From assembly GCA_949293185.1 (NCBI GenBank), contig CASFCQ010000009.1:1-43179 (forward strand): DNA of 43,179 nt, given 5' to 3'. The notes under the pieces are model-generated. The model saw only the letters and a program-made list of their open reading frames with translations. It did no database searches and was not told the origin of the DNA. Positions within the stretch are counted from its first letter, which is position 1, and each line of letters begins with the position of its first letter. Below, piece by piece: positions 212 to 24,318 of this stretch. The position numbers and the translations under genes were made by a program. This DNA is from an uncultured bacterium. GTDB taxonomy: Bacteria; Cyanobacteriota; Vampirovibrionia; Gastranaerophilales; Gastranaerophilaceae.

Positions 212-2860
212 CTATTTTATATTTTTCAAACAGTTTTGCGGAGCTACTATAGTAAATACGTATGGTTGTTCAAAGTATTTGTTAGCAACGCGTATGATGT
301 CTGTAGCTGTTATGCTTTTTACAAGCTCGGGGAATTTGTTTATATAATCATATCCTCTGCCTGAAAGTTCAAACCAGCCGAGAGTGGAAGCTTTTTCCAT
401 ATTAGTTTCCTGTGACAGTATAAAATTGCCGAGGATTTTGTCTTTTGCCTCCTGCAGCTCTTTATCTGAAACAAACTCTTTTTTCAACAGGTTAACCTGT
501 TTTAAAAGTTCGTTTTTGGAATGCTGTGCAGTTTGCGGGTTTGTGCCTATGTAAAGAACAAATATCCCTTTGTTTACATTTGAGGCAAAGCTTGAACCTA
601 CCTGATAAGCCAGCCCCTGTTCATCTCTTAGCCTGTTGAAAAGTCTGGAGCTCATGCCGCCGCCGAGAATAGAATCAATGACCTGCAAAGCAGCCACATC
701 CTTCTGGTTTTCTACTCCGTCAGTGAGCCAGCCCATTACTATCCATGCTGCTTCTGAGTCTTTGGATTTTTTGACGGTTTTGTTTGCGTTCAGCGGTTTG
801 AAAACATTTTTGTATGTGCTGTAATCAAATTTTTTGGCGTTTGTTTGTTTATCTAAGCAGAAAATTTCTGTAACCGCATTGATTATATCGCTGTCATTAA
901 CGTTACCGTTTACTGATATTACAAGATTTTCGGGATAGAAAAGTGCGTTGTAATATTCGGTAACGTCTTTATGGTTTATTGTCGGGATTGTTTTTTCCAG
1001 AATTTTGCCGGTAACGCCGTAAGGTGTGCCTTGCCAGATTGCGGTTTTAAATTCTTCCAGAGCAACGTTCACAGGCAAATCTCTGTTTCTTTGAATTGCC
1101 TGCAGTTTTTCTTTTTTTACTTTTTCAAGCTGTTGTTCATCAAGAGAAGCATTGTTGACTATTTCATTTAACAGCTCAAAAGTCAAAGGCAAATCGTTTT
1201 TTGTAGTTTTTATTGCAATGCTGAACATATCTGAACTGTTGGAGGGTTCAATAATTATGCCGTTTTGTTCCATTGTCTGGGACAAATCAAGTGCTGAATA
1301 TTTTTTTGTTCCCTTTAACATAAGTGTTGAGGTTATTGAGCCGAGCCCCGGTTTTTTTTCTATATAGTTGCCGCCTTTTGAATAAACAGTCATTGCCACA
1401 ATATCGTTAAGGTGATTGTGGTTGATAATGAGATTTATGTTACAGGGTAGCTTGTATTGAGAAATTGTTTTGTCTTTTTTTACAAGCACCGGTTTGTTCG
1501 GGTGAGTGTGTTTTTTTACATTGCTTATTGGTTTTGTGTTTTCCTGACAAGTTTCATCCGGCAGCATTATAGAAACAGCTGCCTGATTGGGGTTGAGGTA
1601 TTTTTTTGCAACTCTTATAATATCATTTTTTGTCACTTTGTTTATGTTTTCAATGTATTCGTCATAGTATTTGGAATCTCCGTACACAAGCGTTGTGTAT
1701 CCGAGTTCGTTTGCTATGTTAGAGGTGGATTCTCTTGAATAGAAGGTATCTCTCTCGATTATACTTTTGGCTTTTTGAATCTCTTTTTCGTCAAAGTTTC
1801 CGTTTCTTATTTTTTCAATTTCGTCAAAAACGGCTTTTTTAACTTTTTCTTTGTTTATAGGAATAAAGTTTGCACTGACATATAAAATACTGTCATCTTT
1901 CATGGAAGCATGTCCTGCGCCTATACTGTAAGCCAGCTGTTGTTGTTCTTTGACTGATTGATATAATTTAGAAGAGCGGCCGTCGCCAAGCAATGTTGCA
2001 AGTACATCAAGAGCATAGCTGTCAGAACGGTCCTGCTGGGGAACGCCTCTGAAACCTATCATCATATAGCCTGTTTTTACTTTGTCATGGGCGGTTACTT
2101 CTTTTGATTTTTCGAGGTATTTATCCTGTTTGTATTCAGGAAGTTTTGTTTTTTTAGCTTCTTTTTTGTTGAAGTCGTGTTTTATTATCTTCAAAGCTTC
2201 CTGAGTATTAACATCTCCGACAACAACGGTTATCATATTGGACGGGTTGTACCATGTGTTGTAAAAATACAATATTTCTTCTCTCGGGATGTTTTCTATA
2301 ATTTCTTTTTTGCCGATAACCTGTCTTTTGTACGGATGATTCTGGTAGAGTGATTTTATCATGTTTTCGTACAATTTGTTTTCAGGGTTGTCATTGGTTT
2401 TAGAAATTTCTTCTATAACAACTTTTCTTTCTTTTTCGAGTTCTTTATCAGGGATAAGCGGATTGAGCAGCATATCGGCGTGCAAATCCATAGCGAGGTT
2501 AAAATATTTAGACGGAATTGTTATGTAATAGTGTGTAAAATCTTTGCTTGTTGCAGCGTTTGTCATTGCACCTTTGGATTCAAGTATTTTGTCAAACTCG
2601 CCTGTAGGGTGTTTTGTTGTTCCTTTAAAAAACAGGTGTTCCAAAAAATGTGCAACACCGTTGTTTGTATCATTTTCATTGATAGAACCCGTTTTTATCC
2701 AGGTATCTATAGTGACAATCGGGTTGTCATGGACTTCTTTAATTATAACGGTTTGTCCGTTATCGAGTTTAAAGGTTGAATAGTCCTGCGCAAAAACACA
2801 CTGGGCAAGGCTGATAAATACTACAAAAACTAAAACTGCAAGATTTTTTATATTTTTCAT
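212..2860 (-). CDS. Secreted two-domain M16 family zinc metallopeptidase
   Basis: This is an insulinase/pitrilysin (M16) peptidase of 882 residues, expected to cut peptides outside the cytoplasm. Residues 1-24 form a signal peptide (basic start, hydrophobic core, AQ after the probable cleavage site). The catalytic HxxEH signature is at H71-E74-H75. A downstream glutamate at about 151 has the 76-residue spacing typical of the third zinc ligand. A second M16 half follows. It lacks HxxEH (the equivalent stretch reads GSITSTLMLKGT) but keeps the C-terminal R/Y-type motif (SSRLFNRLRDEQGLAYQVG). One active and one inactive half are therefore fused, where many bacteria use two separate genes. The ATG at 2860 is preceded by AAGGACG, a good ribosome site. 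The gene diverges from the hybrid-cluster-like gene, with about 150 bases shared between them. Confidence 0.93.
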   Translation of the reverse strand: MKNIKNLAVLVFVVFISLAQCVFAQDYSTFKLDNGQTVIIKEVHDNPIVTIDTWIKTGSINENDTNNGVAHFLEHLFFKGTTKHPTGEFDKILESKGAMTNAATSKDFTHYYITIPSKYFNLAMDLHADMLLNPLIPDKELEKERKVVIEEISKTNDNPENKLYENMIKSLYQNHPYKRQVIGKKEIIENIPREEILYFYNTWYNPSNMITVVVGDVNTQEALKIIKHDFNKKEAKKTKLPEYKQDKYLEKSKEVTAHDKVKTGYMMIGFRGVPQQDRSDSYALDVLATLLGDGRSSKLYQSVKEQQQLAYSIGAGHASMKDDSILYVSANFIPINKEKVKKAVFDEIEKIRNGNFDEKEIQKAKSIIERDTFYSRESTSNIANELGYTTLVYGDSKYYDEYIENINKVTKNDIIRVAKKYLNPNQAAVSIMLPDETCQENTKPISNVKKHTHPNKPVLVKKDKTISQYKLPCNINLIINHNHLNDIVAMTVYSKGGNYIEKKPGLGSITSTLMLKGTKKYSALDLSQTMEQNGIIIEPSNSSDMFSIAIKTTKNDLPLTFELLNEIVNNASLDEQQLEKVKKEKLQAIQRNRDLPVNVALEEFKTAIWQGTPYGVTGKILEKTIPTINHKDVTEYYNALFYPENLVISVNGNVNDSDIINAVTEIFCLDKQTNAKKFDYSTYKNVFKPLNANKTVKKSKDSEAAWIVMGWLTDGVENQKDVAALQVIDSILGGGMSSRLFNRLRDEQGLAYQVGSSFASNVNKGIFVLYIGTNPQTAQHSKNELLKQVNLLKKEFVSDKELQEAKDKILGNFILSQETNMEKASTLGWFELSGRGYDYINKFPELVKSITATDIIRVANKYFEQPYVFTIVAPQNCLKNIK

Positions 2861-3008
2861 AATCCGTCCTTTTGATTTTCTTATTTGATAACAAATTATA
2901 CTATATATTTTATTTTCTACGCATAGTCTTAATAGATGTTATATAGATTATTTTTTTATAGCTCTGCCGGTTAATGGTTTAAATCTTTAATCCGGTTAAC
3001 ATGCAGTT

Positions 3009-4619
3009 ATGATTAACAAATTTTCGGATAAAAACTTTTGGACTGATGATAATATGTCATACAACGATTGTGCAATAGAAGGATTTTGCAGTATAGATCC
3101 TATTGTTTACTCGCTTATGGAGGTTTTGCTTTATGAATTAAAGCAGATTACTTACTATTACATAAAAATGCAGGAACTCGGCTATGAAAATAAAGAGCTT
3201 AAAAATCAGATTATAAACTATTTGTCTGTCGTGTTAATCGGGTACGAATTTAACCGCAAGGAGTTTGAAGATTTGATTTATAAAATCCACAGCGAAAAAG
3301 AATCCGTTAAAGAAGCTTATATTGCAGTATGTGACAAGGAAAACATAGACTGCCAGATTTTAAAATCCAATATAGATTTTAAAAAGTTTAATATGTCGGC
3401 TATTGTGCAGCAGGGAGAACAGCAGGCTGTTTTAAGAAACAAAATTTTAAACTCTGATGTAAAAAATATCTATGAAATAATTCTGAATCTGATAAAAAGT
3501 GCAAGTATAAGGCTTGTGGAGCTAAAATCTTACACAGATGACTATGTTCCGGAAGAAGACGCAATATTAAAACTGTTCAACAGTTTGAATTTTTCAACAA
3601 TACAAGAGTCAAAGCTGATTAGAAAAATTAATGACTTTGCAAAAATAAATTTTGAAATCCATCAAAAATTACACAGACTTAAAGAAGAGTATTACGGCAA
3701 AATTTCTCTAAACGATGTACAAATCGGTGTTGATAAAGGTAAGTCCATACTTGTGTCAGGTCAAAACCTTAATGATTTAGAAAATCTTCTGGAAACTTTA
3801 AAGGACACTGACATAAATGTTTACACCCACAACGGGCTTATTGTTGCACATGCTTATCCTAAGTTTAAAAACTTCCCTAACTTAAAGGGGCACTATCAGA
3901 TGTCGCTTGATAATGTGCAGTATGATTTTACCTCATTTAAAGGAGCTGTTCTTGTTATCAGAGATTTTCAGTATCTTTTAGACAGACTTTATCGCGGCAG
4001 AATATTCACCACAAATATAATCGGCGGCAAAGGTATGACACGTGTTGAAAACAATGACTTTTCAAAGCTTATTCAAACAGCACAGGAAAGCGAAGGCTAT
4101 AAAGACAACCATAGAATAACCACCGTAAAAGTAGGTTACGATGAAAATCTTGTTATGCAAAAAGTTGATGAAGTCATTGAAAAAATTGAAAACAAGGAGA
4201 TAAAACATCTCATAATCGTGGGGCTTTTAAATCATGCTGCAATGCACAGCGAATATTTCAGCGAAATGGAAAAACATCTTGGCGATGATTATTTTGTCAT
4301 AAGTACTGTAATGACCTCCAAAAAGAACAATGTGTTGTATTTTGATTCCTTTTTTAATTCTTCTTTGATTTACAAGATACTTACGCACATTAAAAATCAT
4401 ATTGATTTTGAAAAATTTCCCGTGAGTGTATTTATTACAACATGCAACATGCATACAATGTCGCATTTGTTTAATCTGCGTTATCTCGGGATAAAAAATA
4501 TATATCTTCCTGTGTGTACAGCCAATATTTTGACACCTAACATGCTTGAATTTTTAAAATCAAAATTTAATGTAAGACAGGTTTCTTCAAACCCTCAAAA
4601 AGATTTAAAAGACCTTTAA
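3009..4619 (+). CDS. Hybrid-cluster-protein (prismane) homologue lacking the cluster ligands
   Basis: The fold assignment rests on long collinear similarity to hybrid cluster proteins (hydroxylamine reductase family). N-terminally there is a C-x5-C-plus-helix pattern (C21, C27). Then come KSILVSGQNLNDLENLL (245-261), NVYTHNGLIVAHAYPKF (270-286), RIFTTNIIGG (331-340), and a C-terminal RYLGIKNIYLP...TPNMLEFLKSKF block. Compared by eye with the family, all eight ligands of the hybrid Fe-S-O cluster are replaced: His by Q252, Glu by G276, four Cys by F320, L407, M435 and F449, Glu by N480, and Lys by H482. Of the four N-terminal cubane Cys, only the last two remain. The frame is intact over 536 codons, so this is a maintained protein and not a decayed gene. 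Hydroxylamine reduction is not expected, and its present role is unknown. No clear ribosome site precedes the ATG. Its stop directly abuts the stop of the convergent hydrolase gene. Confidence 0.78.
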   Translation: MINKFSDKNFWTDDNMSYNDCAIEGFCSIDPIVYSLMEVLLYELKQITYYYIKMQELGYENKELKNQIINYLSVVLIGYEFNRKEFEDLIYKIHSEKESVKEAYIAVCDKENIDCQILKSNIDFKKFNMSAIVQQGEQQAVLRNKILNSDVKNIYEIILNLIKSASIRLVELKSYTDDYVPEEDAILKLFNSLNFSTIQESKLIRKINDFAKINFEIHQKLHRLKEEYYGKISLNDVQIGVDKGKSILVSGQNLNDLENLLETLKDTDINVYTHNGLIVAHAYPKFKNFPNLKGHYQMSLDNVQYDFTSFKGAVLVIRDFQYLLDRLYRGRIFTTNIIGGKGMTRVENNDFSKLIQTAQESEGYKDNHRITTVKVGYDENLVMQKVDEVIEKIENKEIKHLIIVGLLNHAAMHSEYFSEMEKHLGDDYFVISTVMTSKKNNVLYFDSFFNSSLIYKILTHIKNHIDFEKFPVSVFITTCNMHTMSHLFNLRYLGIKNIYLPVCTANILTPNMLEFLKSKFNVRQVSSNPQKDLKDL

Positions 4620-5255
4620 TTATAAAATGTTAGAACCAAAATAGCAGTTGTATTTTTTTTCGTAACCTATACTGGTTTTTGAATCATGACCCGGGTAAAC
4701 ATCTATGTCATCATCCAGTTTAAACAATTTTTCTTTTATAGAGTTGCTCAATTGTGCAAAACTTCCGCCTTCAAAATCCGTTCTGCCAACAGAAGTATAA
4801 AACAAAGTATCGCCGGAAAAAAGCAGCTTCCCAACTAAAAAACATACGCTGCCGGGGGTATGTCCGGGTGTATGGATAACTTTTATTTCTTTATCACCGA
4901 TTTTGAATGTATCTTTTTCCGTAAAAGTTTTTAAATTTTCGGGCGGAAGTGCATTTTCTGCAAATCCGAAACGCTCTAATTGTTTTGGTAAATTTTGAAC
5001 AAGGTATTTGTCCTCTTCATGCACATAAACAGGTACATCAAAAACTTCCTGAGCATCTTTTTCTCCTAAAATATGGTCAAAATGCCCGTGAGTGTTTAAA
5101 ATATATTTTAAAGAAGCATTGTTTTTTTCAAGTTCATCTTTTATTGCGCGGTAATCTCCGCCTAAATCAATTATTACAGCCTCTTTTGACTCCTCATCAA
5201 TAAGCAGATAAGCATTTGTGCCTATAAGACCGAGCGGAAAAGTTTTTACAATCAT
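4620..5255 (-). CDS. Metallo-beta-lactamase-fold hydrolase (glyoxalase II-like)
   Basis: This 211-residue protein has the complete metal-binding set of the MBL-fold hydrolases: THGHFDH at 55-61 (HxHxDH), H132 in HTPGHTPGS, D149 in FSGDTLF, and H190 in YPGHDSKTSIG. The order and length match the YcbL/glyoxalase II-like group, which hydrolyses thioesters such as lactoylglutathione or related small substrates. The actual substrate cannot be read from sequence. It is cytoplasmic, with no signal peptide. The ATG at 5255 follows a GGGGAT ribosome site at about 7 bases. It is the last gene of the prfA-era-small-protein-hydrolase run on the minus strand. It ends at the base next to the stop of the opposing hybrid-cluster-like gene, leaving no room for a separate intergenic terminator. 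Confidence 0.9.
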   Translation of the reverse strand: MIVKTFPLGLIGTNAYLLIDEESKEAVIIDLGGDYRAIKDELEKNNASLKYILNTHGHFDHILGEKDAQEVFDVPVYVHEEDKYLVQNLPKQLERFGFAENALPPENLKTFTEKDTFKIGDKEIKVIHTPGHTPGSVCFLVGKLLFSGDTLFYTSVGRTDFEGGSFAQLSNSIKEKLFKLDDDIDVYPGHDSKTSIGYEKKYNCYFGSNIL

Positions 5256-5285
5256 TATTTATCCCCGTAAACTAACCGGTATCGA

Positions 5286-5567
5286 TTATATCATAAAATT
5301 TACGGATTGTTTATTTGCGTCCAGTTCTGCCTGCTGGGTGGGTGTTCGTTTTTCCGGAGGGATGCTTTCAAGCTTTGCAATTCTTTTTTGTACAAGTCGT
5401 GTTCTAAGATTATCAAAAAGACGGGACAAAAAAGATTTTTTTTGCGGTTTTGAGTCTCCACCAACAACGTCGCCTACTTTTACACTCGCAATGACCGGTG
5501 CTGTGTGCTGCTGCCAGTTTTGAGACGGTTTTGGCATTGAAGAAAGTAAACTTGTACCTGCGACCAT
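5286..5567 (-). CDS. Small basic hypothetical protein
   Basis: I do not recognise this 93-residue protein. The frame can be extended upstream to 5606, but the ATG at 5567 is preferred. AAAGGA lies six bases upstream of it, whereas the longer version has no ribosome site and adds an atypical N-terminus. The first half is low-complexity and probably flexible. The second half (SFLSRLFDNLRTRLVQKRIA, then a Lys/Glu/Gln-rich stretch) is likely helical and basic. There is no signal peptide or membrane segment. It sits between era and the MBL-fold hydrolase in the same direction with short gaps, so it is probably co-transcribed with them. Confidence 0.6.
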   Translation of the reverse strand: MVAGTSLLSSMPKPSQNWQQHTAPVIASVKVGDVVGGDSKPQKKSFLSRLFDNLRTRLVQKRIAKLESIPPEKRTPTQQAELDANKQSVNFMI

Positions 5568-5640
5568 GATTTTCCTTTCATAATACGTTGATATTATAAA
5601 ACACAAAATGAATTTTTTTTGCTATTTGCATGGAAAATCT

Positions 5641-6528
5641 TTACACCCAGTTTTCTAAGTCAGGAGTCTTTTTACGCCAATCTTTAGATACTTTGACATT
5701 TAGTTCCAGAAAAACTTTTTTATCAAGCATTTTTTCTAGTTCCAGCCTTGCCTGCGTGCCTATTTTTTTGAGCATTTGCCCTTTTTTACCTATCATAATG
5801 CCTTTTTGGCTGTCGTGTTCAACGTGTATAACAGCAGAAATCCTGTCTATATCTGCTTTTTCTTCGTATTTTTCGATAATAACAGCCACACTGTGAGGGA
5901 TTTCATCTTTTGTATTTAGCAGAATTTTTTCTCTGATAATTTCCTGCGCAATTGAGCGCATGCTTTCATCCGTAAGGTCATCTTCATCGTATATCGGTGC
6001 ACCTTCAGGAAGTTTTCGCATAATTGTTGAAATAAGCGTGTCGATATTTCGTCCTGTTTGGGCAGAAATCCTTGCTGTAGGAAGATTTGTATCAAACAGC
6101 ATTTTGTATGTAAGTATGTTTTGCTCTTTTTTTATCGGGTCTTTTAGCTTGTCAACTTTATTCAAGACTATAATAACAGGGATATTGGTCTTTTTAAGCA
6201 GATTTTCAACAATCCACTTGTCTCCGGCACCTGCCGGCTCTGACGCATCGACAATGAACAAAATCAAATCAGCATCAGGGATTGAACATTTCGCTTCGTC
6301 CATAAGGAATTCGCCGAGTTTGTCAACAGGCTTGTGAATCCCAGGAGTGTCAATAAAGACAATCTGCCCTTCTGCATTTGTATAAATACCTTTGATTCTT
6401 TTGCGTGTTGTTTGTGCCTTATCGGTTGCAATGACTATCTTTTGACCGATAACAGTATTGAGCAGGGTTGATTTGCCCACATTGGGTCTGCCAATAACTG
6501 CTACAAAACCTGATCTAAACTCTTTCAT
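5641..6528 (-). CDS. era: GTPase Era
   Basis: Era is an essential GTPase that binds the 3' end of 16S rRNA during 30S ribosome maturation. The 295-residue length is typical. G1 is GRPNVGKS at 13-20, G3 is DTPG at 60-63 followed by the Era hallmark IHKP, and G4 is NKVD at 123-126. A C-terminal KH domain is indicated by the IGKKGQMLKKIGTQARLELE stretch and the VFLELNVKVSKDWRK end. The ATG at 6528 follows AGGTGATTT, and this ribosome site overlaps the prfA stop. The gap to prfA is only 10 bases, which suggests one transcript and translational coupling. Confidence 0.97.
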   Translation of the reverse strand: MKEFRSGFVAVIGRPNVGKSTLLNTVIGQKIVIATDKAQTTRKRIKGIYTNAEGQIVFIDTPGIHKPVDKLGEFLMDEAKCSIPDADLILFIVDASEPAGAGDKWIVENLLKKTNIPVIIVLNKVDKLKDPIKKEQNILTYKMLFDTNLPTARISAQTGRNIDTLISTIMRKLPEGAPIYDEDDLTDESMRSIAQEIIREKILLNTKDEIPHSVAVIIEKYEEKADIDRISAVIHVEHDSQKGIMIGKKGQMLKKIGTQARLELEKMLDKKVFLELNVKVSKDWRKKTPDLENWV

Positions 6529-6538
6529 AAATCACCTG

Positions 6539-7621
6539 TTAATTGATTTCTGCCAGTTTTTCAAGTTTAAGTTTCTGGTCGTGTTCCATAAGCAGGTTAA
6601 TCAGCTCATCAAGGTCGCCGTCAATAACTGTCCATACGTTAAGGTTTTGACCTATACGGTGGTCAGTAAGGCGTCCCTGCGGGAAGTTGTATGTTCTGAT
6701 ACGTTCGGAACGATCACCTGTACCTACCTGAGAACGTCTGAGGTCGGTTATTTCCTGCATTTGTTTTTGTGTTTCTATATCGTATAATTTTGCTTTCAAA
6801 ATTTGCAGTGCGCGTTCTTTGTTTTGAAGCTGAGAACGTTCTTCTGTACAGAAAATCATAATACCTGACGGTTTGTGGAATACTCTTACCGCTGTCTCTA
6901 CCTTGTTAACATTTTGTCCGCCCGCACCGCCTGAACGCGCTGTGGAAATTTCAAGGTCATTTGGGTTCAATTCTATTTCAACATCGTCGACTTCCGGCAT
7001 AACAGCTACTGTTGCAGTTGATGTGTGAACTCTGCCCTGGGATTCTGTTTGCGGAACACGCTGTACACGGTGTACACCGGATTCATATTTTAATTTAGAG
7101 TAAATGCTGTCGCCTTTGATTGAGATAATAACTTCAGAAACCCCGCCGGCTTCGCAATCTGTTTTGCTTAAAATTTGTGATTGCCAGCCTTGTTTATCTG
7201 CGTAGCGCAGATACATTCTCATAAGGTCGCCCGCAAATATGTTAGCTTCGTCACCGCCTGCACCGCCTCTGATTTCGAGCATAATATCTTTGTCATCCAT
7301 AGGGTCGCGCGGAAGCAGAAGAACTTTCATTCTTTCTTCAAGTTCTTTGTTTTTAGCTTCGTTAGAATCGATTTCGCCATGGAGATACTGTTTCATCTCA
7401 GGGTCGCTTTCTGATTTTAAAAGTTCTTTTGCGTCTTCGATGGCATCTGTATTGTCTTTCCACTGATGATATACATCAACGGTTTCTTCCATTGCTTTTC
7501 TTTGTTTAGACAAATCTCTAAACTTTTCATAATCTGCAATTACATCCGGATCTGACAAAATTTTGCCAAGTTCAACATATTTTTCTTCTATTTGAAGAAT
7601 TTTATCTAACATATCTTTCAT
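6539..7621 (-). CDS. prfA: Peptide chain release factor 1
   Basis: RF1 recognises UAA and UAG stop codons and triggers peptide release. The 360-residue protein contains the universal GGQ motif ([11 protein letters not shown], near residue 232), whose glutamine acts at the peptidyl-transferase centre. The stop-recognition tripeptide is PQT (in [18 protein letters not shown], near residue 188). This PxT form marks RF1 and excludes RF2, which has SPF. It is the first gene of the prfA-era run. It reads away from the GH57 gene's terminator, so its promoter should lie in or near 7622-7680. Confidence 0.97.
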
Positions 7622-7678
7622 AGTGTGCGTATTCCCTATCTGTTTGTTATTTTATAATAACTCAAGCAAAATTTTAAT

Positions 7679-7717
7679 AAAAGCCCATGTCTTACATAGT
7701 AGCAGACAAGGGCTTTT
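7679..7717 (-). terminator. Rho-independent terminator for the GH57 gene
   Basis: AAAAGCCCATGTCT at 7679-7692 pairs with AGACAAGGGCTTTT at 7704-7717, with one mismatch in 14 and an 11-base loop. On the minus strand the hairpin follows the GH57 stop by about 20 bases and ends in a T-rich run. It sits between GH57 and prfA and separates the two minus-strand transcripts. Confidence 0.8.
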
Positions 7718-7738
7718 TATTAAGTATTTTCTTTTTTG

Positions 7739-10321
7739 TTATTTTTTAGAATCTTTGAGTTGTTTCATTGCGGCTGTCAGCGGCGACATTGCTTTATCAA
7801 ATGTTTCCCGGTAAAAATCTGTATTTATATTCAGCTTGTTACCGAGTTCCAGAAGCAGCAGCACAAATTTGCGGTCATAGTCGCTGTTAACTTCTTCGAT
7901 ATTAGAAACCACATTTTCCAGTATTTCATGAATCTTGTTAAAGTATGTGTTTTGAGATTCTGATGTATCAATATGCAGCTCCAGAGCATCGACGTATTTG
8001 AACAGGGTTAATACTGTTTCTATTCTGTGAATTTCCGGATTTTTGGCAAGGTCATACATTGCATCGGTAATTTTTTCCGTGAACACTGTATTTGCAAGCT
8101 TTTTATCCAGAGAAACCCCGAGCCATTTTGCCTCGTTATAAAGGTCAATAGCTTCTTGCAGCTCGTGATCATTCATTGACTTTTGATAATCTTCAATCTG
8201 TTTGTTGAATTCAACACCCAGTACGTATTTTGCCGCAATTTTAAATTCATCCGGCGGAGTAAGTCCAAGGTTTTTAAAGTTAAGAACAGAAGCTTTTCCG
8301 TCTTCATAAATATCTTTATACAGTCCGGAGAATTTCTTTGTTTTGCCTTGCATCATAATAGTAAGGATTTTTCTTCTTTCTTCAATAAATATATCCTTGA
8401 GAGTGTAGTATTCCGTACCGAAGTTTTTATCAAGACTTCTTATTATTTCGGTCAGAGGATAGTTTATGAACGTTTCTGTCATATTCTTTCTGATATTATT
8501 ACACTCTTCTGCGGAAGCATATTCTTTTATTGCACAGTGGAAGTCGCCTCCTGAATATTTAAGCAGTGCAAAAATCATGTCGTATTTTTCAAGCGTAATT
8601 TGAGATTTTATCTCAACACGTCCGAGATACAGGCTGTTTTTCCCTTTTGAAACAATCTTGTATGTTAAACGTTTTATGTCGTAACAGTAGAATGATGTTT
8701 CATCCTCCATATCTTCTTCGTAAAGTGAAGATATTGCCCACAGGCTTACAATTTGTTTTATTGTAACAACTGAAGGTTTAACAAATTTTCTGTAAATATC
8801 AGCGCCTGTTCCGAACTCTTTAATGTTGCTCTGTGCATTAGCAAGAATGTTGATAAATTCGGTTTCGTAATCTTTTTCCGTAAAGCTTGCAGCAAGCTGC
8901 ATAGCTCGTGCGGCATACTTCATTATTTGAGTTGTTTCAATACCGGAAATATCTGCAAAGAACCAGCCGCAGCTTGTGTACATAAGCATTGCCTGTCTTT
9001 GTATTTCAAGAAGTTTCATCGCCGCAACTTTATCATCATCGTCGCATTCCGGTTTAAGATTGTTTTTAAGAAAGTTTTTAATAGAAAGTTCGCTTCTGTC
9101 GAGAATAACGTTTATATATTCGTTACGAACATCCCACGGGTCTTTTGTGAAGAATTTTTTTCCGTGTTTTTCGTAAAGTTCAATCAGGTTATCTCTTAAG
9201 TAATCTAAAGCGTCCCGGAGAGGTTTTCTCCATCTTTGATTCCAGCTGGGCTGACCGCCTGTTGAACAGCCGCAGTCTTCTTTCCATCTTCCTACTCCGT
9301 GGAAACAGCTCCAGGATGATGCCTGTTTGATATCGACTTCATCATGTACGCCGTATTTTTCAAGATACTCGCCGTAGTTTGTGATTGTAAAGCCTTCTTC
9401 TTTGGCTTTTACTCTTAATACATAAGCTAATGCCATATCTCCGAATTTTGTATGGTGACCGTAGCTTTCTCCGTCAGTGCCGATGTGGATAAGCTGAGGA
9501 TAGTTTCTTGAGGTAGAGATACCTTCTTTGAGTCTTGCTACAAATTTGTTGCCGTCTTGAAGAATGTTATCGAATGCAACGGATTTTGAAATAGCGCCGT
9601 CGTAAAAGAACAGGTCAACAAATTTTTTAGGATTGTTTTTAATAAAGTATCTGTAAGGTTTTGCAGGGTCTATATTTCCCCAGCCTGCGTCAGTCCATTC
9701 TTTATCGCCCATTTTTCGGTATTTTAATGACTGATAAGGAGATAAAATAGTGAATTTAATACCGTTATCCGCAAGAACCTCGAGAGTCTCATCATCTACG
9801 GCTGTTTCAGCGAGCCACATACCTTCCGGCATTCTGCCGAATCTGTATTCAAAATCTCTTATACCCCATCTTACTTGGGTTTCTTTATCCCTGCGGTTTG
9901 CCAGAGGCATGATAATATGATTGTAAACTTGAGCTATGGCGTTTCCGTGACCAGAAAACTGCACACGGCTGACAACATCAGCTTTTATTATTCTTTCATA
10001 GGTTTTCGGGGCATGTTTTTCCATCCAGGATAACAGCGTCGGTCCGAAGTTATAGCTCATTAGGGAATAGTTATTAACTATATCAAGGACTTTATTTTTG
10101 TCATCCACAATTCTTGAGGCAGAATTAGGATTGTAACACTCTAGGTTAACTCTTTCGTTCCAGTCGTGGAAAGGCAGCGCGCTGTCTTGAAGTTCAATTG
10201 CTTCGAGCCAGGGATTTTCTCTCGGCGGCTGGTAAAAGTGACCGTGAACAGTCAGATATACTTTATTTTTTTCTTCTGTTTTTTCCTGTTTTTCAGTTTT
10301 ATCTGTTTTAGTATTTGCCAT
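7739..10321 (-). CDS. GH57-family glycoside hydrolase with DUF3536 domain
   Basis: This large GH57 enzyme of the DUF3536 type (860 residues from the preferred start) is common in cyanobacteria and relatives. It is presumed to act on alpha-glucans such as glycogen; whether it hydrolyses or transfers glucan chains is not decidable here. After a charged N-terminus, the GH57 motif 1 reads HGHFYQPPREN from H26. Later landmarks are the MPEGMWLAETAVD block and GTDGESYGHH (near residue 280). The C-terminal half is helical and matches the expected DUF3536 extension. There is no signal peptide, so it is cytoplasmic. Two ATGs are possible (10327 and 10321). The second is favoured because GGAG lies 8 bases upstream of it but only 2 bases from the first. 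A terminator follows the gene. Confidence 0.9.
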   Translation of the reverse strand: MANTKTDKTEKQEKTEEKNKVYLTVHGHFYQPPRENPWLEAIELQDSALPFHDWNERVNLECYNPNSASRIVDDKNKVLDIVNNYSLMSYNFGPTLLSWMEKHAPKTYERIIKADVVSRVQFSGHGNAIAQVYNHIIMPLANRRDKETQVRWGIRDFEYRFGRMPEGMWLAETAVDDETLEVLADNGIKFTILSPYQSLKYRKMGDKEWTDAGWGNIDPAKPYRYFIKNNPKKFVDLFFYDGAISKSVAFDNILQDGNKFVARLKEGISTSRNYPQLIHIGTDGESYGHHTKFGDMALAYVLRVKAKEEGFTITNYGEYLEKYGVHDEVDIKQASSWSCFHGVGRWKEDCGCSTGGQPSWNQRWRKPLRDALDYLRDNLIELYEKHGKKFFTKDPWDVRNEYINVILDRSELSIKNFLKNNLKPECDDDDKVAAMKLLEIQRQAMLMYTSCGWFFADISGIETTQIMKYAARAMQLAASFTEKDYETEFINILANAQSNIKEFGTGADIYRKFVKPSVVTIKQIVSLWAISSLYEEDMEDETSFYCYDIKRLTYKIVSKGKNSLYLGRVEIKSQITLEKYDMIFALLKYSGGDFHCAIKEYASAEECNNIRKNMTETFINYPLTEIIRSLDKNFGTEYYTLKDIFIEERRKILTIMMQGKTKKFSGLYKDIYEDGKASVLNFKNLGLTPPDEFKIAAKYVLGVEFNKQIEDYQKSMNDHELQEAIDLYNEAKWLGVSLDKKLANTVFTEKITDAMYDLAKNPEIHRIETVLTLFKYVDALELHIDTSESQNTYFNKIHEILENVVSNIEEVNSDYDRKFVLLLLELGNKLNINTDFYRETFDKAMSPLTAAMKQLKDSKK

Positions 10322-10399
10322 ATTCATAACTCCGCAACTATATCAATATGCGATAAATATTATCATTTATATTTTTGTTTATTTCCAATTGTTGTGAAT

Positions 10400-11023
10400 T
10401 TAAATTTTAGCTTTTTTATCTTCGTCTTTTTTCTTTTTGCTTATAACAACGAGCTTGTCAGTATCAACCCAGGCGTCTGTTAAAGCATCGGAAAATACTT
10501 TACCGTAAACTTCTATAATATCACCGGAATCAAGGTCGATAAATTTTTCGGCTTCGCTGCGTTTTATAAATATTTTCATCTCTGAAAGAGGTATTGTGTG
10601 GTCAGTTACATCGTCTCTTTTAATCAGGAAAGAAATATATTTTTGGGAATCTCTGAATGCAGGTTTGTAATCCAGACCTAAAGTGGAAAATTTGTCAAAA
10701 GAAGCTTTAAACTTAACCTTTTTACCCACGTATGCCGACGGATTGTTGACGATATTCAATGATGCAACAGCGCTGTATTCGTTTGCATTGGCAGGCGGGG
10801 TCGTCATTGATGAAGGTTTATCCTCTGCCGCTTTTACGGTCTTATCCAGCTTAACCTCTTGTTGTGTTTGAGGTTGCGTTGTTTGTTCTGCAGCCGCAGG
10901 AGTTTTTGGCTGGGCAGAGTCTTTTTGCTGTTCAGGTGCTATTGCCGCAAACGTAATCAGGCTGCCTGCAAGCACAAGACATGTTATTGCTGTTAAAATT
11001 ATGTTATTTTTAAGTGTTTTCAT
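10400..11023 (-). CDS. Exported or membrane-anchored OB-like hypothetical protein
   Basis: This 207-residue protein starts with a basic and hydrophobic segment (about residues 5-30) that is either a signal peptide or an anchor. A Pro/Gln/Ala/Thr-rich linker follows to about residue 75. The C-terminal part (NNPSAYVGKKVKFKASFDKF onward) resembles OB-fold 'nucleic-acid-binding-like' exported domains: beta-rich, with a GDIIEVYGKV turn. It ends in a very lysine-rich tail. I cannot name a family with confidence. The ATG at 11023 is preceded by AGGG at about 11 bases. It lies 78 bases upstream of the GH57 gene in the same direction and might share its transcript. Confidence 0.7.
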   Translation of the reverse strand: MKTLKNNIILTAITCLVLAGSLITFAAIAPEQQKDSAQPKTPAAAEQTTQPQTQQEVKLDKTVKAAEDKPSSMTTPPANANEYSAVASLNIVNNPSAYVGKKVKFKASFDKFSTLGLDYKPAFRDSQKYISFLIKRDDVTDHTIPLSEMKIFIKRSEAEKFIDLDSGDIIEVYGKVFSDALTDAWVDTDKLVVISKKKKDEDKKAKI

Positions 11024-11158: not shown

Positions 11159-12274
11159 CTATCTTTTTGCATTAGGATTGAGATTCGGATTGTTGATTCT
11201 CATACTTGGAGGACCTTCTTTTCCGTATACAAATGCAAGAATCTCTGCTACAGCTACATATAAGTCGGCGGGAATAACTTCATCAACCTTTACAAGTTTA
11301 TACAAAGAACGTGCAAGCGGCTTATTTTCTACTATTGGCACATTATTTGCTTTGGCAATTTCTCGTATTTTAAACGCCATATAATCCACGCCTTTTGCAA
11401 CTACAACAGGCGCAGGGGCAAGTGATTTGTCATATTTTAAAGCAACAGAAAAATGCGTCGGGTTGGCAACAACAACATCAGCATTAGGGACAGCTGTAAG
11501 CATTTTTTGTTTCATAAACTGCATCTGAGCTGATTTGAGTTTTGACTTTATGACAGGATCTCCTTCCATGTTTTTCCATTCATCTTTGATTTCCTGTTTT
11601 GTCATTTTTATTGATTTATTGTATTCATAGTCGGAGTATTTTTTATCAATGAAGCCTATGATAAGCATCGCAACAATGATGTTTAAAATCATCTGGGTCA
11701 AAATGCTTGCCAGCACTGTAAAAGCAGTGGGGATATCAACACCGAGCAATCCCAGCAGTTCATCTTTTCTGCCCATTACCGTAGAAAAACCGCAGTAGCC
11801 GACAATGCCGACTTTTAAAAAGGATTTTGTAATTTCTATTAAATTTTTAGGTTCAAACGGATTGAACATGCGTTTAAGAGCCTGAACCATGTTAGCAGGC
11901 TGGAATTTATCCAGCTTGGGTTTTATTTTTTCTGTAGCAAATAATGCTCCTACCTGAATGCGCATGATTATAATTGTTGCAAAAGCAAGCCCCAGTAAGA
12001 ACGGCAAAAGCATTTCTCCCGTGACTTTTGCATAAGGCGCAAAGAGTGCAATTATGTCATTTGTTTCAATAGACTTGGGGTCAAGGTGTGTAAGCGTGTA
12101 ATATAAGAGATTTTTAAGCTTTTCCAGAATTCGCGGCGCCATAACAAAAAGCAGACCGACACCGGTTGTAACGGTCAACGCTGAAGTCATATCCTGACTT
12201 CGTGCAATATTCCCTTTTTTTCGCTCGTCCTCCCGCCGCTTGGGGGTCGCCTCTTCCGTTTTTTCGTCTGCCAT
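11159..12274 (-). CDS. flhB: Flagellar export protein FlhB
   Basis: FlhB is the substrate-specificity switch of the flagellar type III export gate in the inner membrane. The 371-residue protein has a charged N-terminus (ADEKTEEATPKRREDERKKG), four hydrophobic segments, and a cytoplasmic C-domain. That domain contains the autocleavage motif NPTH at 271-274 (VVVANPTHFSVALKYD). The end is a Pro/Asn-rich tail. The ATG at 12274 follows AAAGG at about 7 bases, and the gap to fliR is 13 bases. The order fliP-fliQ-fliR-flhB is the classical export-gate operon, and flhA is not in the window. An injectisome origin is less likely because the proteins and order look flagellar. Confidence 0.95.
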   Translation of the reverse strand: MADEKTEEATPKRREDERKKGNIARSQDMTSALTVTTGVGLLFVMAPRILEKLKNLLYYTLTHLDPKSIETNDIIALFAPYAKVTGEMLLPFLLGLAFATIIIMRIQVGALFATEKIKPKLDKFQPANMVQALKRMFNPFEPKNLIEITKSFLKVGIVGYCGFSTVMGRKDELLGLLGVDIPTAFTVLASILTQMILNIIVAMLIIGFIDKKYSDYEYNKSIKMTKQEIKDEWKNMEGDPVIKSKLKSAQMQFMKQKMLTAVPNADVVVANPTHFSVALKYDKSLAPAPVVVAKGVDYMAFKIREIAKANNVPIVENKPLARSLYKLVKVDEVIPADLYVAVAEILAFVYGKEGPPSMRINNPNLNPNAKR

Positions 12275-12287
12275 ATTTTACCTTTAT

Positions 12288-13073
12288 CTACATAAAGAGA
12301 TTCAATATACCTTTCAAATAGTTTTGTGTTACTGCAACGAGATAACTTACAGTAGGTGATAAAAACATTAGTATTAAAACGATACCTATGTATATTTTAA
12401 GAGGTATTGCCACCATGAATATATTCATCTGCGGCATCATTTTAGACATAAAGCCCATTAATACTTCTGATACAAACATAACACAGAATATTGGCAAAAT
12501 CATACTTATGCCTATAGCGAACATCTCTGATGACATGTGCAATACCTGTGAAACGATATTTCCAGTAAAAATATACTCTATCCCCGGAGGAAATGCCTGA
12601 AAGCTCTTGTAAATAGCGGCAAAAAGCCACTGATGGGCATTCAGCCCTATAAATACCATTGTTGCAAGATAGGTATACATTTGAGAAAGAATTTGAGTAC
12701 TTTCGCCTGTTGTCGGGTCGAGAACCTGACTCATTGATATACCTATTTGTATGCTCACAAATTCACCGCCGATTTGTACTGCGGCAAATAGAAAATTTGC
12801 ACAGAAACCTATCACATAGCCTATTGCAAATTCACGGACAAGATATACAAGTACCTCGGGAATACTGTGAGGCACAATAAACGCCTGATTTGCAGCAACC
12901 ATAGGGAAAAGTATAAAAGCAACAATTGCACCGAGCCAAATTTTAACCTGCTGTGGTATGGGATATGTAGAAATTAGAGGCATAGAAAATATCATGCCGC
13001 TGATTCTTGTAAAAATAAGTACAAAAATCAGTATATTTGACGGTGATAATATTGTTAGCAAATTAGGCTGCAA
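12288..13073 (-). CDS. fliR: Flagellar export protein FliR
   Basis: FliR is a core membrane subunit of the flagellar export gate and forms a helical assembly with FliP and FliQ. The 261-residue length is normal. Multiple hydrophobic segments span most of the protein, with family-typical blocks such as FTRISGMIFSMPL near the N-terminus and EFVSIQIGISMSQVLDP in the middle. The start is a TTG at 13073 (protein begins MQPNLL). The strong GGGAG ribosome site about 9 bases upstream supports this non-ATG start. It follows fliQ by about 20 bases. Confidence 0.94.
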   Translation of the reverse strand: MQPNLLTILSPSNILIFVLIFTRISGMIFSMPLISTYPIPQQVKIWLGAIVAFILFPMVAANQAFIVPHSIPEVLVYLVREFAIGYVIGFCANFLFAAVQIGGEFVSIQIGISMSQVLDPTTGESTQILSQMYTYLATMVFIGLNAHQWLFAAIYKSFQAFPPGIEYIFTGNIVSQVLHMSSEMFAIGISMILPIFCVMFVSEVLMGFMSKMMPQMNIFMVAIPLKIYIGIVLILMFLSPTVSYLVAVTQNYLKGILNLFM

Positions 13074-13094
13074 TACTCGATTCTCCCGTCTGTC

Positions 13095-13364
13095 TTATTT
13101 TATCATTGTTTGTATGTAGTCAAACATTTCAGTACTTCTTGTGACAAACATATTCAACATCCAAGGCATTAATATAATCAAAGTCAAAATACCCGCAATG
13201 ATTTTGGGCACAAATGTTAATGTAGATTCTTGAATTTGTGTCACTGCCTGAAAAATACTAATTACAAGTCCTACAACCATGCTGATAACAAGCACGGGAG
13301 TAGATAAAATTAATATGAGTATTAATACATTTTGTGTAAGCGTTAAAAAAGCCACGTCATCCAT
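13095..13364 (-). CDS. fliQ: Flagellar export protein FliQ
   Basis: FliQ is a small two-helix subunit of the export gate. The 89-residue protein has the expected two hydrophobic helices. Between them is the conserved loop block VGLVISIFQAVTQIQESTL, a signature of the FliQ/SctS family. The ATG at 13364 has AAAGGA about 11 bases upstream. It is placed between fliP and fliR in the standard order. Confidence 0.95.
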   Translation of the reverse strand: MDDVAFLTLTQNVLILILILSTPVLVISMVVGLVISIFQAVTQIQESTLTFVPKIIAGILTLIILMPWMLNMFVTRSTEMFDYIQTMIK

Positions 13365-13418
13365 TTATATAATTTTCCTTTGTTTTTGTGTTCAAAATTG
13401 AAATGAGTCTTATCCCCG

Positions 13419-14180
13419 TCAGGTAACAAATCCTTCAAGCAGAGTTTTTGTTACAAGATACCAGCCGTCTATCATAACGAACAGTATCAACTTAAACGGC
13501 ATAGCAACAGTGGTCGGGGGTAAAAACAACATACCCATCGAAACCAGAATACTTGCTACCACAATATCTATAACAAGAAATGGCAAAAATATTACAAAAC
13601 CGATTTTAAAGGATGTTTTTAGTTCTGTTATAACAAATGCTGGAATAAGCGTATAAGTGGGAACATCCTGCCAGTTTTTGGGTTTTTCTATTTTTGCCAT
13701 ACTCAAAAACAGCCCCAGTTCTTTTTCTTCTGTATGTTTAATCATAAATTCTCTTAAAGGCTGTATTGCTTTATCCAGAGCAACCTGCTGGGTAATCTGG
13801 TTTTTCATATAGGGTTGAATAGCTGTTTCATTGATTTTGTTAAAAGTCGGAGCCATAACAAAAAATGTTAAAATTAGCGCCAGACCGGCAAGCACCTGAT
13901 TCGGTGGCAGGGTGGAAGTTCCTATTGCCTGTCTGGTCAGTGCAAGCACGATGATAATTCTTATAAATGCCGTACACATAATAAAAATACTTGGCGCAAG
14001 GGTCAAAATAGTTAAAAGTATAAGAATTTGTACGCCCTGCGTGAACTCCTGCGGAGTGTTGGCATTGGTCATTCCCACAGTAATAGTCGGAAAAGCCACT
14101 GCAGCGTGAGCGGCAGTATTTGTAAAAAATACCGCAAGTAATGCGGTTAATACTTTTAGAAAATTACGTATATTTTTCAT
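13419..14180 (-). CDS. fliP: Flagellar export protein FliP
   Basis: FliP forms the central pentameric channel of the flagellar export gate. The 253-residue protein begins with a cleavable signal peptide (about residues 1-27, ending AAHAA), as is usual for FliP. Family-defining segments follow: MCTAFIRIIIVLALTRQAIG, then LPPNQVLAGLALILTFFVMAP, and a C-terminal block including VSMGMLFLPPTTVAMPFK. It is the first gene of fliP-fliQ-fliR-flhB. It diverges from cysS across about 250 bases that should contain both promoters. Confidence 0.96.
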   Translation of the reverse strand: MKNIRNFLKVLTALLAVFFTNTAAHAAVAFPTITVGMTNANTPQEFTQGVQILILLTILTLAPSIFIMCTAFIRIIIVLALTRQAIGTSTLPPNQVLAGLALILTFFVMAPTFNKINETAIQPYMKNQITQQVALDKAIQPLREFMIKHTEEKELGLFLSMAKIEKPKNWQDVPTYTLIPAFVITELKTSFKIGFVIFLPFLVIDIVVASILVSMGMLFLPPTTVAMPFKLILFVMIDGWYLVTKTLLEGFVT

Positions 14181-16485: not shown

Positions 16486-16934
16486 TATTTAAACTCCATA
16501 AAATCCCCGACCGTTTTATTTTTCGTGTAATTTTTCTGTTGATTATTTTGTGGAATCTGAAATACCTGTTTCTGCTTGTACAAATACCTTTTACGATGCT
16601 GTTTGTTGACTATCAGGGGCAAAACCCTTTCTATTCACAGGTAAAAGACATAAAAACATCAGTTAAAAGTATTGAAGATTTTCAAGATGAAGGCAAAATA
16701 GGTTTTGTTTCTGATACGCAACAAGAGAGCGTTTTTGATTTAGAATCTTCAATCAGAAATTTTTATATTGCTCAATACGCAATAGTCCCGTCAGTTTTAA
16801 AAAATGATAAGCTCGAAAACTATGTCATTGGTGCTTATGAAAATAAGCCGAAAAATGTCGAAATACCGGAAGGTTTTAGAATTTATAAAAAAGTGAACGA
16901 TAAAACATATATATTTAAAAGGATAGAAGAATAA
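16482..16934 (+). CDS. Small membrane-anchored hypothetical protein coupled to a GT-C-like gene
   Basis: I do not recognise this 150-residue protein. The ATG at 16482 is chosen because it makes the classic ATGA overlap with the coaE stop and lies about 8 bases after AAAGG. An in-frame GTG at 16476 is too close to that site. Residues about 10-40 are strongly hydrophobic (one or two membrane passes). The rest is soluble and charged, probably extracytoplasmic. The stop TAA shares its last base with the ATG of the following multi-pass protein. Such tight coupling suggests a partner or accessory subunit of that protein. Confidence 0.65.
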   Translation: MIFKLHKIPDRFIFRVIFLLIILWNLKYLFLLVQIPFTMLFVDYQGQNPFYSQVKDIKTSVKSIEDFQDEGKIGFVSDTQQESVFDLESSIRNFYIAQYAIVPSVLKNDKLENYVIGAYENKPKNVEIPEGFRIYKKVNDKTYIFKRIEE

Positions 16935-18271
16935 TGACAGGCTCATTGTTAGGATTTATACTCGGATTGTTGGTTACATTGTTTAGCGGTTATTTTGCCG
17001 TATCAATAATATCAAGAGAGATGGAATTAAGATTCAGACTGCTGTTTGCGATTCCTCTCGGATTTGGTATAAATTCTGTCTTGTATTTTCTGTTTTTGTG
17101 TTTACATATCAACAGCTTTGACTGTTTTAAATGGTTTGAACTTGCGTTTGTTGTAGTGCTTGCTTTACTGTATTACAACGAGGAGAAACCTGATTTGAGC
17201 AAACATAAACTCAAAAAACTGTCTAACTGGTTTTATCTTTTGAATTTATACGCTGTTTTGATTTATTTTAAATATTTTATAAACAATCCGATGGGAAGCT
17301 GGGACGGCTTTAGAATATGGAATATAAAAGCTGAATTTTTGTTTTTAAACAACCCGCTGTGGCAGAATGTTTTTTCTCTGCCTCATTTTATGTCGCACAA
17401 CGATTATCCGATGATGCTTCCGGCTGCAACAGCAAGGCTTTGGAGCTATACGGGTGTTGAAAATTATGCAATAAATGCAACAATGGGTTTGTTCTTCACT
17501 TTTGGTCTTGTGTATCTTTTGTATCAGGCGATTGCTTATTTAAAAAGTGAAAAAGCTGCAATTGTTGTTACTTCTGTATTTATGATATTAGACATTTTTC
17601 TGGTAAACGGTGCAGCCCAATGTGCTGATATTCCTCTGGCATATATGTATTTGTGTGCAATAGTAAGTCTGTTTTTGTATTTCAGAAAAGAAAAATTTTC
17701 ATATATAGTGTTATCGATAATTTTTGCCGCATTGAGTGCCTGGACAAAAAATGAGGGCATGCTGTTTTTTGCTGTATATGCGTTTACAATTTTTGGATAT
17801 TTCTTTTTTACAAAAAAATACAAAAGGCTCGGTTTTACGCTATTGAGCGCAATTATTCCTTTAATACTGCTTGTTTTGTACAAAAATATGTCACATGCGG
17901 CTAACGACCTTATTGCAGGTTTTGTTGCATTGAAAACTTATAACTTTGCTCTCGATTTCAGCAGATATTTGATTATATTAAAAACTTTTGTAAAGATGTT
18001 TTTGCTGCGTTTTCCGCTTTTGATTGTGCTTTTACTGCTTTGTATCAAAGGGTTTAAAATAAAAGATGTTAATAAAACTCCCTTTATGCTTGCTTTGATT
18101 GTTTTTGTATTAGTTACGGCAGGATATTTTATGGTTTATCTTTTTTCACCGCATGATATAACCTGGCTTACGCAAAATTCTATGGACAGATTAATGCTGC
18201 AGATTTTGCCGATGGCATTGTTGCTGTTTGCGATTAACTTAAGAATAGGAAAACCTGACAGCAAGCATTAA
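16934..18271 (+). CDS. Multi-pass membrane protein, GT-C glycosyltransferase-like
   Basis: The 445 residues contain about ten or more hydrophobic segments. The pattern resembles lipid-phosphosugar-dependent GT-C glycosyltransferases (PMT/ArnT-like). It has an acidic early loop (MGSWDGFRIWNIKAEFL), a DYPMMLPAATA block, AQCADIPLAYMYL, and AWTKNEGML. The loop aspartate before the next helix is where this fold holds its catalytic acid, but I cannot name a sugar or acceptor. It is translationally coupled to the preceding small membrane protein. A large inverted repeat follows before the convergent cupin gene. Confidence 0.7.
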   Translation: MTGSLLGFILGLLVTLFSGYFAVSIISREMELRFRLLFAIPLGFGINSVLYFLFLCLHINSFDCFKWFELAFVVVLALLYYNEEKPDLSKHKLKKLSNWFYLLNLYAVLIYFKYFINNPMGSWDGFRIWNIKAEFLFLNNPLWQNVFSLPHFMSHNDYPMMLPAATARLWSYTGVENYAINATMGLFFTFGLVYLLYQAIAYLKSEKAAIVVTSVFMILDIFLVNGAAQCADIPLAYMYLCAIVSLFLYFRKEKFSYIVLSIIFAALSAWTKNEGMLFFAVYAFTIFGYFFFTKKYKRLGFTLLSAIIPLILLVLYKNMSHAANDLIAGFVALKTYNFALDFSRYLIILKTFVKMFLLRFPLLIVLLLLCIKGFKIKDVNKTPFMLALIVFVLVTAGYFMVYLFSPHDITWLTQNSMDRLMLQILPMALLLFAINLRIGKPDSKH

Positions 18272-20205: not shown

Positions 20206-21078
20206 ATGTTGAATATAAGTTTACTTAAAAATTGCATAATAAAGCCGCCATTACAGATGCCGAACAGATTTGTAAACATACGTTCGACAGTTAATCCTTA
20301 TGAATTTAAATACAAACCCGAACCCTTTAAAGATTCCTTTGAATTTATTGCCAAAGGTGCACAAGGCAGTGTATACAGAATTTTGAATACAAACTATGCA
20401 ATAAAAGTTAAAAACAATGCAGACTTAAAAAGAGTTTTTTCTAAACCACTCAATTTGAACATAAGTGAATCTGACAGGATAAACCACATCAAAGCCAAAA
20501 TCGGAGATGATATCGAAATAATGTACTTTGTTCCGGGTGAACAAATAAAAAATCAATTCACCCAGAGAGAATTTAAACAGGAAAAAATTACCGACTATTT
20601 AAAATACATATACAATGCCTCTTTAAACAATATGCGCCATGATATAGGCGGTAAAAATACACTGTTTGACAAAGCTACAGGACAGCTGACACCGATTGAT
20701 TTTTACCCGAACAAACCCGGATACAAACACTTTATAATCAATGATGCATTTATTCAGCTTTATGGCAGCACAAAAAATGCAAAAGAAGCAGAATCACTTT
20801 TGAGCAAAATTACTGTTAGCTTTCTGGAACTTTTAAAAACAGATGCAATCAACAAAAAAGGTTTATGCAATATTGATACAGGACTAAAAACCCTTAAAGA
20901 TATAACATTGACAAATCCTCAGTACAAAGATGCACAACTTTTTGTATATGCTTTAGAAAAAAGACTTAAAGACATAATCCAGCAAAAAAACATGATTGGC
21001 ATATTTCCGGATGCACAAAAGACACTGCTGACGCAAATTGAAAAATTGGAACAAGAATTACAAAGAAAAATAATTTAA
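20206..21078 (+). CDS. Small protein-kinase-like fold protein
   Basis: This 290-residue protein carries the ordered motif set of the protein-kinase-like fold. A glycine-rich loop AKGAQGSVY is at 49-57, with the VAIK-type lysine K67 in YAIKVK. A hinge-like stretch MYFVPGEQI follows. The catalytic loop is R144-H145-D146-x4-N151 (RHDIGGKNTLFD), and a DFG-equivalent is D165-F166-Y167. All residues for ATP and metal binding are thus present. The C-lobe is short and the last 60 residues are coiled-coil-like. The target is unknown: it could phosphorylate protein, a small molecule or an antibiotic. There is no signal peptide; the first 45 residues are basic and probably disordered. AGGTG lies about 10 bases before the ATG. 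Confidence 0.7.
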   Translation: MLNISLLKNCIIKPPLQMPNRFVNIRSTVNPYEFKYKPEPFKDSFEFIAKGAQGSVYRILNTNYAIKVKNNADLKRVFSKPLNLNISESDRINHIKAKIGDDIEIMYFVPGEQIKNQFTQREFKQEKITDYLKYIYNASLNNMRHDIGGKNTLFDKATGQLTPIDFYPNKPGYKHFIINDAFIQLYGSTKNAKEAESLLSKITVSFLELLKTDAINKKGLCNIDTGLKTLKDITLTNPQYKDAQLFVYALEKRLKDIIQQKNMIGIFPDAQKTLLTQIEKLEQELQRKII

Positions 21079-22453: not shown

Positions 22454-22501
22454 AATAGTTTCTATATTACACTTATATTTTATAGCATACTACAAACTAT
22501 T
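22454..22501. promoter_or_regulatory. Candidate HxlR promoter flanked by inverted arms
   Basis: Eight-base arms AATAGTTT (22454-22461) and AAACTATT (22494-22501) flank an extended -10 on the minus strand (TGC-TATAAA at 22487-22479). The layout suggests an autoregulatory site for the HxlR protein. The arms are AT-rich and 32 bases apart, so this is a weak call. Confidence 0.4.
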
Positions 22502-24284: not shown

Positions 24285-24289
24285 AAAAA

Positions 24290-24318
24290 TTGTAATCTCC
24301 ATTAATTTTGATTATACT
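24290..24318 (+). promoter_or_regulatory. Divergent promoters sharing one -10 region
   Basis: On the plus strand TTGTAA (24290-24295), a 17-base spacer and TATACT (24313-24318) form a promoter for the GT2 gene. On the minus strand TATAAT (24316-24311) occupies the same bases and would serve the GT-C gene, though no good minus -35 is visible. Only one polymerase could occupy the element at a time. Confidence 0.65.

Follow-up and report, generated by a model that had tools for sequence, protein, structure and literature searches.

The window, by which we mean the whole stretch of 43,179 nucleotides analysed here, contains a gene for a homologue of the hybrid cluster protein (HCP) and a gene for a peptidase next to it:

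3009 to 4619, plus strand: HCP (Prismane) homologue of 536 aa without cluster ligands, recognised by ORF, profile matches, phmmer, AlphaFold2 model and hhalign
212 to 2860, minus strand: divergently transcribed fused M16 peptidase of 882 aa, recognised by profile match and neighbour comparison

In this peptidase, a single chain resembles YfmF as well as YfmH. It accompanies the HCP-like gene at all ten loci of the window subfamily with flanks and was not found beside other branches, and a promoter and terminator scan around the HCP-like gene returned no more than chance. Elsewhere in the window, genes for FlhB, Bac_export_1 (FliR-type) and FliP stand in a row on the minus strand (11159–14180) and represent parts of a flagellar or type III export apparatus of this lineage. 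Long open reading frames without a Pfam match at 0.001 are located at 16934–18271 (+), 20206–21078 (+), 22497–24302 (−) and 36777–38072 (+).

The frame at 3009–4619 is open over 536 codons with zero internal stops, as already stated in the preliminary description, and its product has a full-length HCP/Prismane fold. The protein matches Pfam Prismane at 2.3e-35; it scores 230 bits (3.5e-68) against NCBIfam hybrid_clust (TIGR01703) and 235 bits against NF003658, values that do not reach the curated equivalog cut-off of 361 and the equivalog cut-off of 367, respectively. Residues 18–527 are collinear with the solved HCP 8cnr (phmmer, 6e-39), and hhalign of 23 members of the window subfamily with 15 canonical HCPs yields an E value of 2.4e-53. 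The template-free AlphaFold2 model (mean pLDDT 86.5, pTM 0.87) aligns with the Desulfovibrio vulgaris HCP 1e1d over 502 residues (Z 30.3, rmsd 4.0 Å), although it depends in part on canonical HCPs, since these were contained in the predictor's input alignment. The Ni,Fe-CO dehydrogenases (CODHs) of the same superfamily are matched far less well (Z about 15). Residues 1–26 are predicted to be disordered. The likeness to HCP classes I–III (Prismane; 1e1d, 8cnr, 7de4, 7e0l) thus extends to the full-length fold, the domain order and the collinear sequence, and the long N-terminal helical domain resembles that of class I/II. The retention of the HCP fold, which had been proposed from the sequence, is borne out by both the collinear alignment to 8cnr and the significant structural match to 1e1d.

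The positions of the hybrid-cluster ligands were mapped by phmmer against 8cnr, by MAFFT alignment of 105 homologues and by hhalign, and all three methods agree. The corresponding residues of the window protein are the following:

3762 to 3764, plus strand: Q252 in place of ligand His244 (phmmer, MAFFT, hhalign)
3834 to 3836, plus strand: G276 in place of ligand Glu268 (phmmer, MAFFT, hhalign)
3966 to 3968, plus strand: F320 in place of ligand Cys312 (phmmer, MAFFT, hhalign)
4227 to 4229, plus strand: L407 in place of the persulfide ligand Cys406 (phmmer, MAFFT, hhalign)
4311 to 4313, plus strand: M435 in place of ligand Cys434 (phmmer, MAFFT, hhalign)
4350 to 4358, plus strand: F448 to N450, aligned to ligand Cys459 beside a gap and without Cys (MAFFT, hhalign)
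4446 to 4454, plus strand: N480 in place of ligand Glu494, and H482 in place of Lys496 (phmmer, MAFFT, hhalign)
3069 to 3089, plus strand: C21 to C27, the kept C-x5-C half of the cubane [4Fe-4S] motif (alignment)

None of the seven hybrid-cluster ligands is present. The conserved active-site lysine, Lys496, which we take to be a residue near the cluster and not a ligand, is missing as well. The column of Cys459 was set by the QCNDC motif of 8cnr, whose first Cys is the ligand; its counterpart adjoins an alignment gap and is F448 according to MAFFT or N450 according to hhalign, neither of them a Cys. No Cys occurs near the positions of Cys406, Cys434 and Cys459 anywhere in the aligned window subfamily. 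These three positions are common to HCP and the CODH C-cluster, and the absence of Cys in both MAFFT and hhalign separates the window protein from the latter, too. The agreement of the three methods rules out that the ligands were merely shifted through misalignment. The established ligand set comprises seven residues, which all classes of HCP have in common (PMC10502027); the complete loss claimed in the preliminary description therefore stands, but its count of eight ligands does not, and of its residue list Q252, G276, F320, L407, M435, N480 and H482 are correct, while F449 is off by one. Its statement that two of the four cubane Cys are lost proved right: the pair C15/C21 is kept as C21/C27 in the window protein, and the N-terminal CxxC is gone. 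In the reading favoured here, the window gene encodes a descendant of the hybrid cluster protein that has kept the fold and would be cluster-free.

The window protein differs from HCP classes I–III not only by the absence of all seven ligands and of the cubane CxxC, but also by the presence of new Cys residues:

4443 to 4445, plus strand: C479, gained near-invariant Cys (Tyr in canonical HCP) beside the former Glu ligand (alignment, hhalign, conservation)
4515 to 4517, plus strand: C503, gained near-invariant Cys (Thr/Ser in canonical HCP), partner of C479 (alignment, hhalign, conservation)
3330 to 3332, plus strand: C108, shared by the whole window subfamily and by about 90% of the clade but seldom found in canonical HCP (alignment)

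The distribution of these features was investigated in the clade of ligand-less relatives, whose 109 aligned rows correspond to 107 distinct sampled genes (two were fetched twice), all from a single family of non-photosynthetic Cyanobacteriota (Gastranaerophilales, Gastranaerophilaceae). Zero to three of the seven ligands are kept across the clade, with none in 60 distinct genes (62 of 109 rows), and the CxxC of the four-Cys cubane motif occurs in none of the 109 rows. In contrast, all seven ligands are found in 39 of 39 canonical rows and in 19 of 19 full-length homologues from other cyanobacterial families; canonical seven-ligand HCPs are represented by 38 other loci within the wider group as well as by the 19 cyanobacteria. 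In a tree of 106 proteins, which was calculated with a quick method and rooted at the midpoint, the ligand-less proteins of the family form one clade with a support of 100, the window subfamily is nested within it (support 100) and the canonical HCPs stand apart (support 99). Members with 57–94% identity occur in the genus of the window and two neighbouring genera, and divergent members (26–36%) in nearly every genus of the family.

C479 and C503, a conserved Cys pair as would befit a glutaredoxin-dependent dithiol protein, occur together in 105 of the 109 rows (103 of 107 distinct genes). Both are absent in three genes and C503 alone in one; as L048 and L054 are sisters in the tree, the pair was lost jointly in only about two events. 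Their relatedness-weighted conservation (94% and 93%, respectively) is among the best of all residues that differ from HCP, and D306 and R329 are further near-invariant residues that deviate from the canonical majority. C108 is kept in 98 of 109 rows and C21/C27 are both kept in 100. In the model, C479 and C503 are each located three residues past the end of successive beta strands (472–476 and 497–500) at the edge of the sheet that bears the Glu494/Lys496 loop in HCP, and their sulfurs probably lie close together, judging by these strand positions. The model of a glutaredoxin-linked relative exhibits the same topology (Z 30.6 to 1e1d).

A survey of 228 genomes of the family, each at least 95% complete, revealed a homologue of some kind in 219 and a protein that reaches the canonical cut-off in 76. 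The ligand-less form occurs alone in most of the genomes, the distribution of canonical HCP is patchy (about a third), and the window's genome (99% complete) lacks a canonical HCP. Pairs of close orthologues show dN/dS ratios of 0.046–0.061 at a dS of about 0.6, and amino-acid change is about 1.2 times faster than in the canonical HCP of the same genomes. The ligand-less gene is hence under purifying selection and close to universal in its family, which agrees with the earlier proposal that the protein is maintained by selection; ratios near 0.05 and intact frames rule out a pseudogene. That the ligands were lost and the gene was nevertheless conserved can be regarded as practically certain.

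The genomic neighbourhood provides a hint to the function. Among the 79 ligand-less loci that do not belong to the window subfamily, 30 (from 16 genera) have a glutaredoxin gene directly upstream and on the same strand, which mostly overlaps the HCP-like gene or sits within about 30 bp of it. By contrast, no upstream glutaredoxin was found at the 38 canonical HCP loci (Fisher p about 1e-6, for related loci that are not independent). Two types are linked on different branches, namely, a GST_N_3/glutaredoxin-like protein at 26 loci (about 73–85 aa in most) with the motif CPYC or sometimes CPYS, and a classical glutaredoxin at four loci. Of the genomes tested, 17 of the 18 from one branch have the GST_N_3-like type and the 21 others all lack it; five genomes harbor it away from the HCP-like gene, and these unlinked copies (three were recovered as ORFs) have no shared neighbour. 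The upstream genes at L049, L055, L136 and L152 have CPYS in place of CPYC, indicating that the second active-site Cys is dispensable. Linkage is explained by no single Cys set, given that the linked L040 lacks C479, C503 and C108, and L026 and L042 lack C21/C27. A glutaredoxin beside the window gene itself is ruled out: the checked members of the window subfamily have none within 700 bp upstream, and one GST_N_3-like glutaredoxin used as a query gave no match in the window's genome. Family and profile searches detected only two glutaredoxins in this genome, both general classical ones encoded elsewhere.

The best-supported mechanism, which we infer and put forward tentatively, is that of a thiol/disulfide redox protein on the HCP scaffold, in which a Cys pair has replaced the cluster. 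The hybrid-cluster ligands and the cubane CxxC have been lost, and the C479/C503 pair has become fixed. The position of both residues just past successive strand ends at the edge of the cluster-binding sheet suggests that they can form a redox-active dithiol/disulfide, which would be situated within the emptied pocket. The protein might then act as a thiol-based redox enzyme or sensor with disulfide, persulfide, nitrosothiol or glutathione-adduct chemistry. Its reduction would be accomplished by a glutaredoxin. In many genera the glutaredoxin gene immediately precedes the HCP-like gene, as it would in an operon; in the genus of the window, the glutaredoxin would have to come from another place in the genome. 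The proposed combination of a Cys pair and a glutaredoxin partner is reminiscent of dithiol redox proteins served by glutaredoxin, whose fold is unrelated. The lost ligands, the gained Cys pair and the upstream glutaredoxin of the relatives jointly indicate that a former metal enzyme may have been converted into a thiol redox protein. More doubtful, if still conceivable, is the fuller scenario that the cluster was swapped for the Cys pair in the very same pocket, giving rise to a metal-free redox enzyme or sensor that is served by glutaredoxin and now represents a core gene of the family. Several observations count against the dithiol reading. The window subfamily has no adjacent glutaredoxin, no single Cys set accounts for the linkage, and the Cys pair was lost jointly in only about two events. 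Moreover, 12 conserved positions near the ligand columns compared with 7.8 expected show no clear concentration, and a clustering of conserved residues round the old pocket is unconvincing.

The main alternative, a remodelled metal site, is possible but rather unlikely. It would bind a metal or Fe-S cluster via C21/C27 and perhaps C108, i.e. with fewer Cys ligands, or a metal such as zinc via C479/C503 and a pocket His. The conservation of C21/C27 despite the loss of half the cubane, that of C108 and the frequent occurrence of H281 and H295 in the pocket region are consistent with such a site, and glutaredoxins can carry Fe-S clusters. However, the N-terminal 26 residues are predicted to lack order, some linked members have C479/C503 without C21/C27, and many members of the genus g24 have changed H281 to Asn and H295 to Gln and kept both Cys. 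An unlikely explanation is a non-catalytic scaffold, sensor or structural protein whose conserved Cys serve stability only. The total loss of the catalytic cluster site would fit this view, as would the rapid divergence between genera together with strong constraint within a genus, and the tandem arrangement of diverged copies in some genera could point to hetero-oligomers. But a passive scaffold predicts neither the near-invariance and joint loss of C479/C503 nor the repeated linkage to two glutaredoxin types. As regards the scaffold envisaged in the preliminary description, the conserved new Cys pair and the glutaredoxin linkage point to a redox role rather than to a plain scaffold. Its suggestion of a partner of a true cluster enzyme found no support: the idea that the protein obligately partners or regulates a canonical HCP of its own cell could be reconciled with the paralogy and with the co-occurrence in about a third of the genomes, but is highly improbable given that canonical HCP is missing from the window's genome and from most others of the family. 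A decaying gene or misaligned ligands, for which nothing but the low score against HCP models speaks, can virtually be dismissed in view of the dN/dS ratios, the three concurring alignments and the lack of any nearby Cys.

HCP is a long-standing biochemical riddle, and the conserved ligand-free clade separates the role of the fold from that of the cluster. If the thiol redox reading holds and the Cys pair replaced the cluster, the protein of this gut bacterium related to cyanobacteria would be a clear example from nature of a thiol site that was built out of a metal active site. An annotation based on the fold alone would wrongly designate this near-universal family gene as hydroxylamine reductase. 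The genes of HCP classes I and III are usually isolated and those of class II are paired with an HCP reductase (PMC10210160), whereas the ligand-less relatives are often linked to glutaredoxin. The sister group of Ni,Fe-CO dehydrogenases, including clade D/CODH-V, contains proteins with altered or absent CO activity, in which altered active-site metal ligands accompany a changed function on the same superfamily fold (PMC6344411, PMC13056359). Such variation lessens the surprise of the general theme, but these CODH variants keep most of the C-cluster Cys, whereas the window protein lacks the whole ligand set. Neither a cluster-less HCP nor an HCP of Gastranaerophilales nor an HCP–glutaredoxin operon is described in the literature searched, which mostly excluded subscription papers, so that this absence is not proof of novelty.

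Other partly ligand-depleted HCP forms exist outside the clade, namely, in two further families of the order, f6 and f7 (L072, L077, L080, L108 and L110). Of the eight positions they keep two or three in the alignment, where C479/C503 are missing; L072 still has the N-terminal CxxC. These forms have the appearance of independent or intermediate steps in the loss of the ligands. A more degenerate branch within the clade (L062, L063, L065, L066 and L067; 487–533 aa) has a deletion around the position of Cys434. Two to three diverged ligand-less genes are arranged head to tail and nearly touching in two genera (L041 [G032], 5620–10482; L043 [G036], 483–3685; L115 [G144]), and such tandem copies possibly form hetero-oligomers. 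Finally, the canonical HCP gene of L101 (G029, 5142–6710) contains an in-frame TAA, which would fit a canonical HCP that is currently being lost while a ligand-less copy is maintained, unless it is an error of the assembly.
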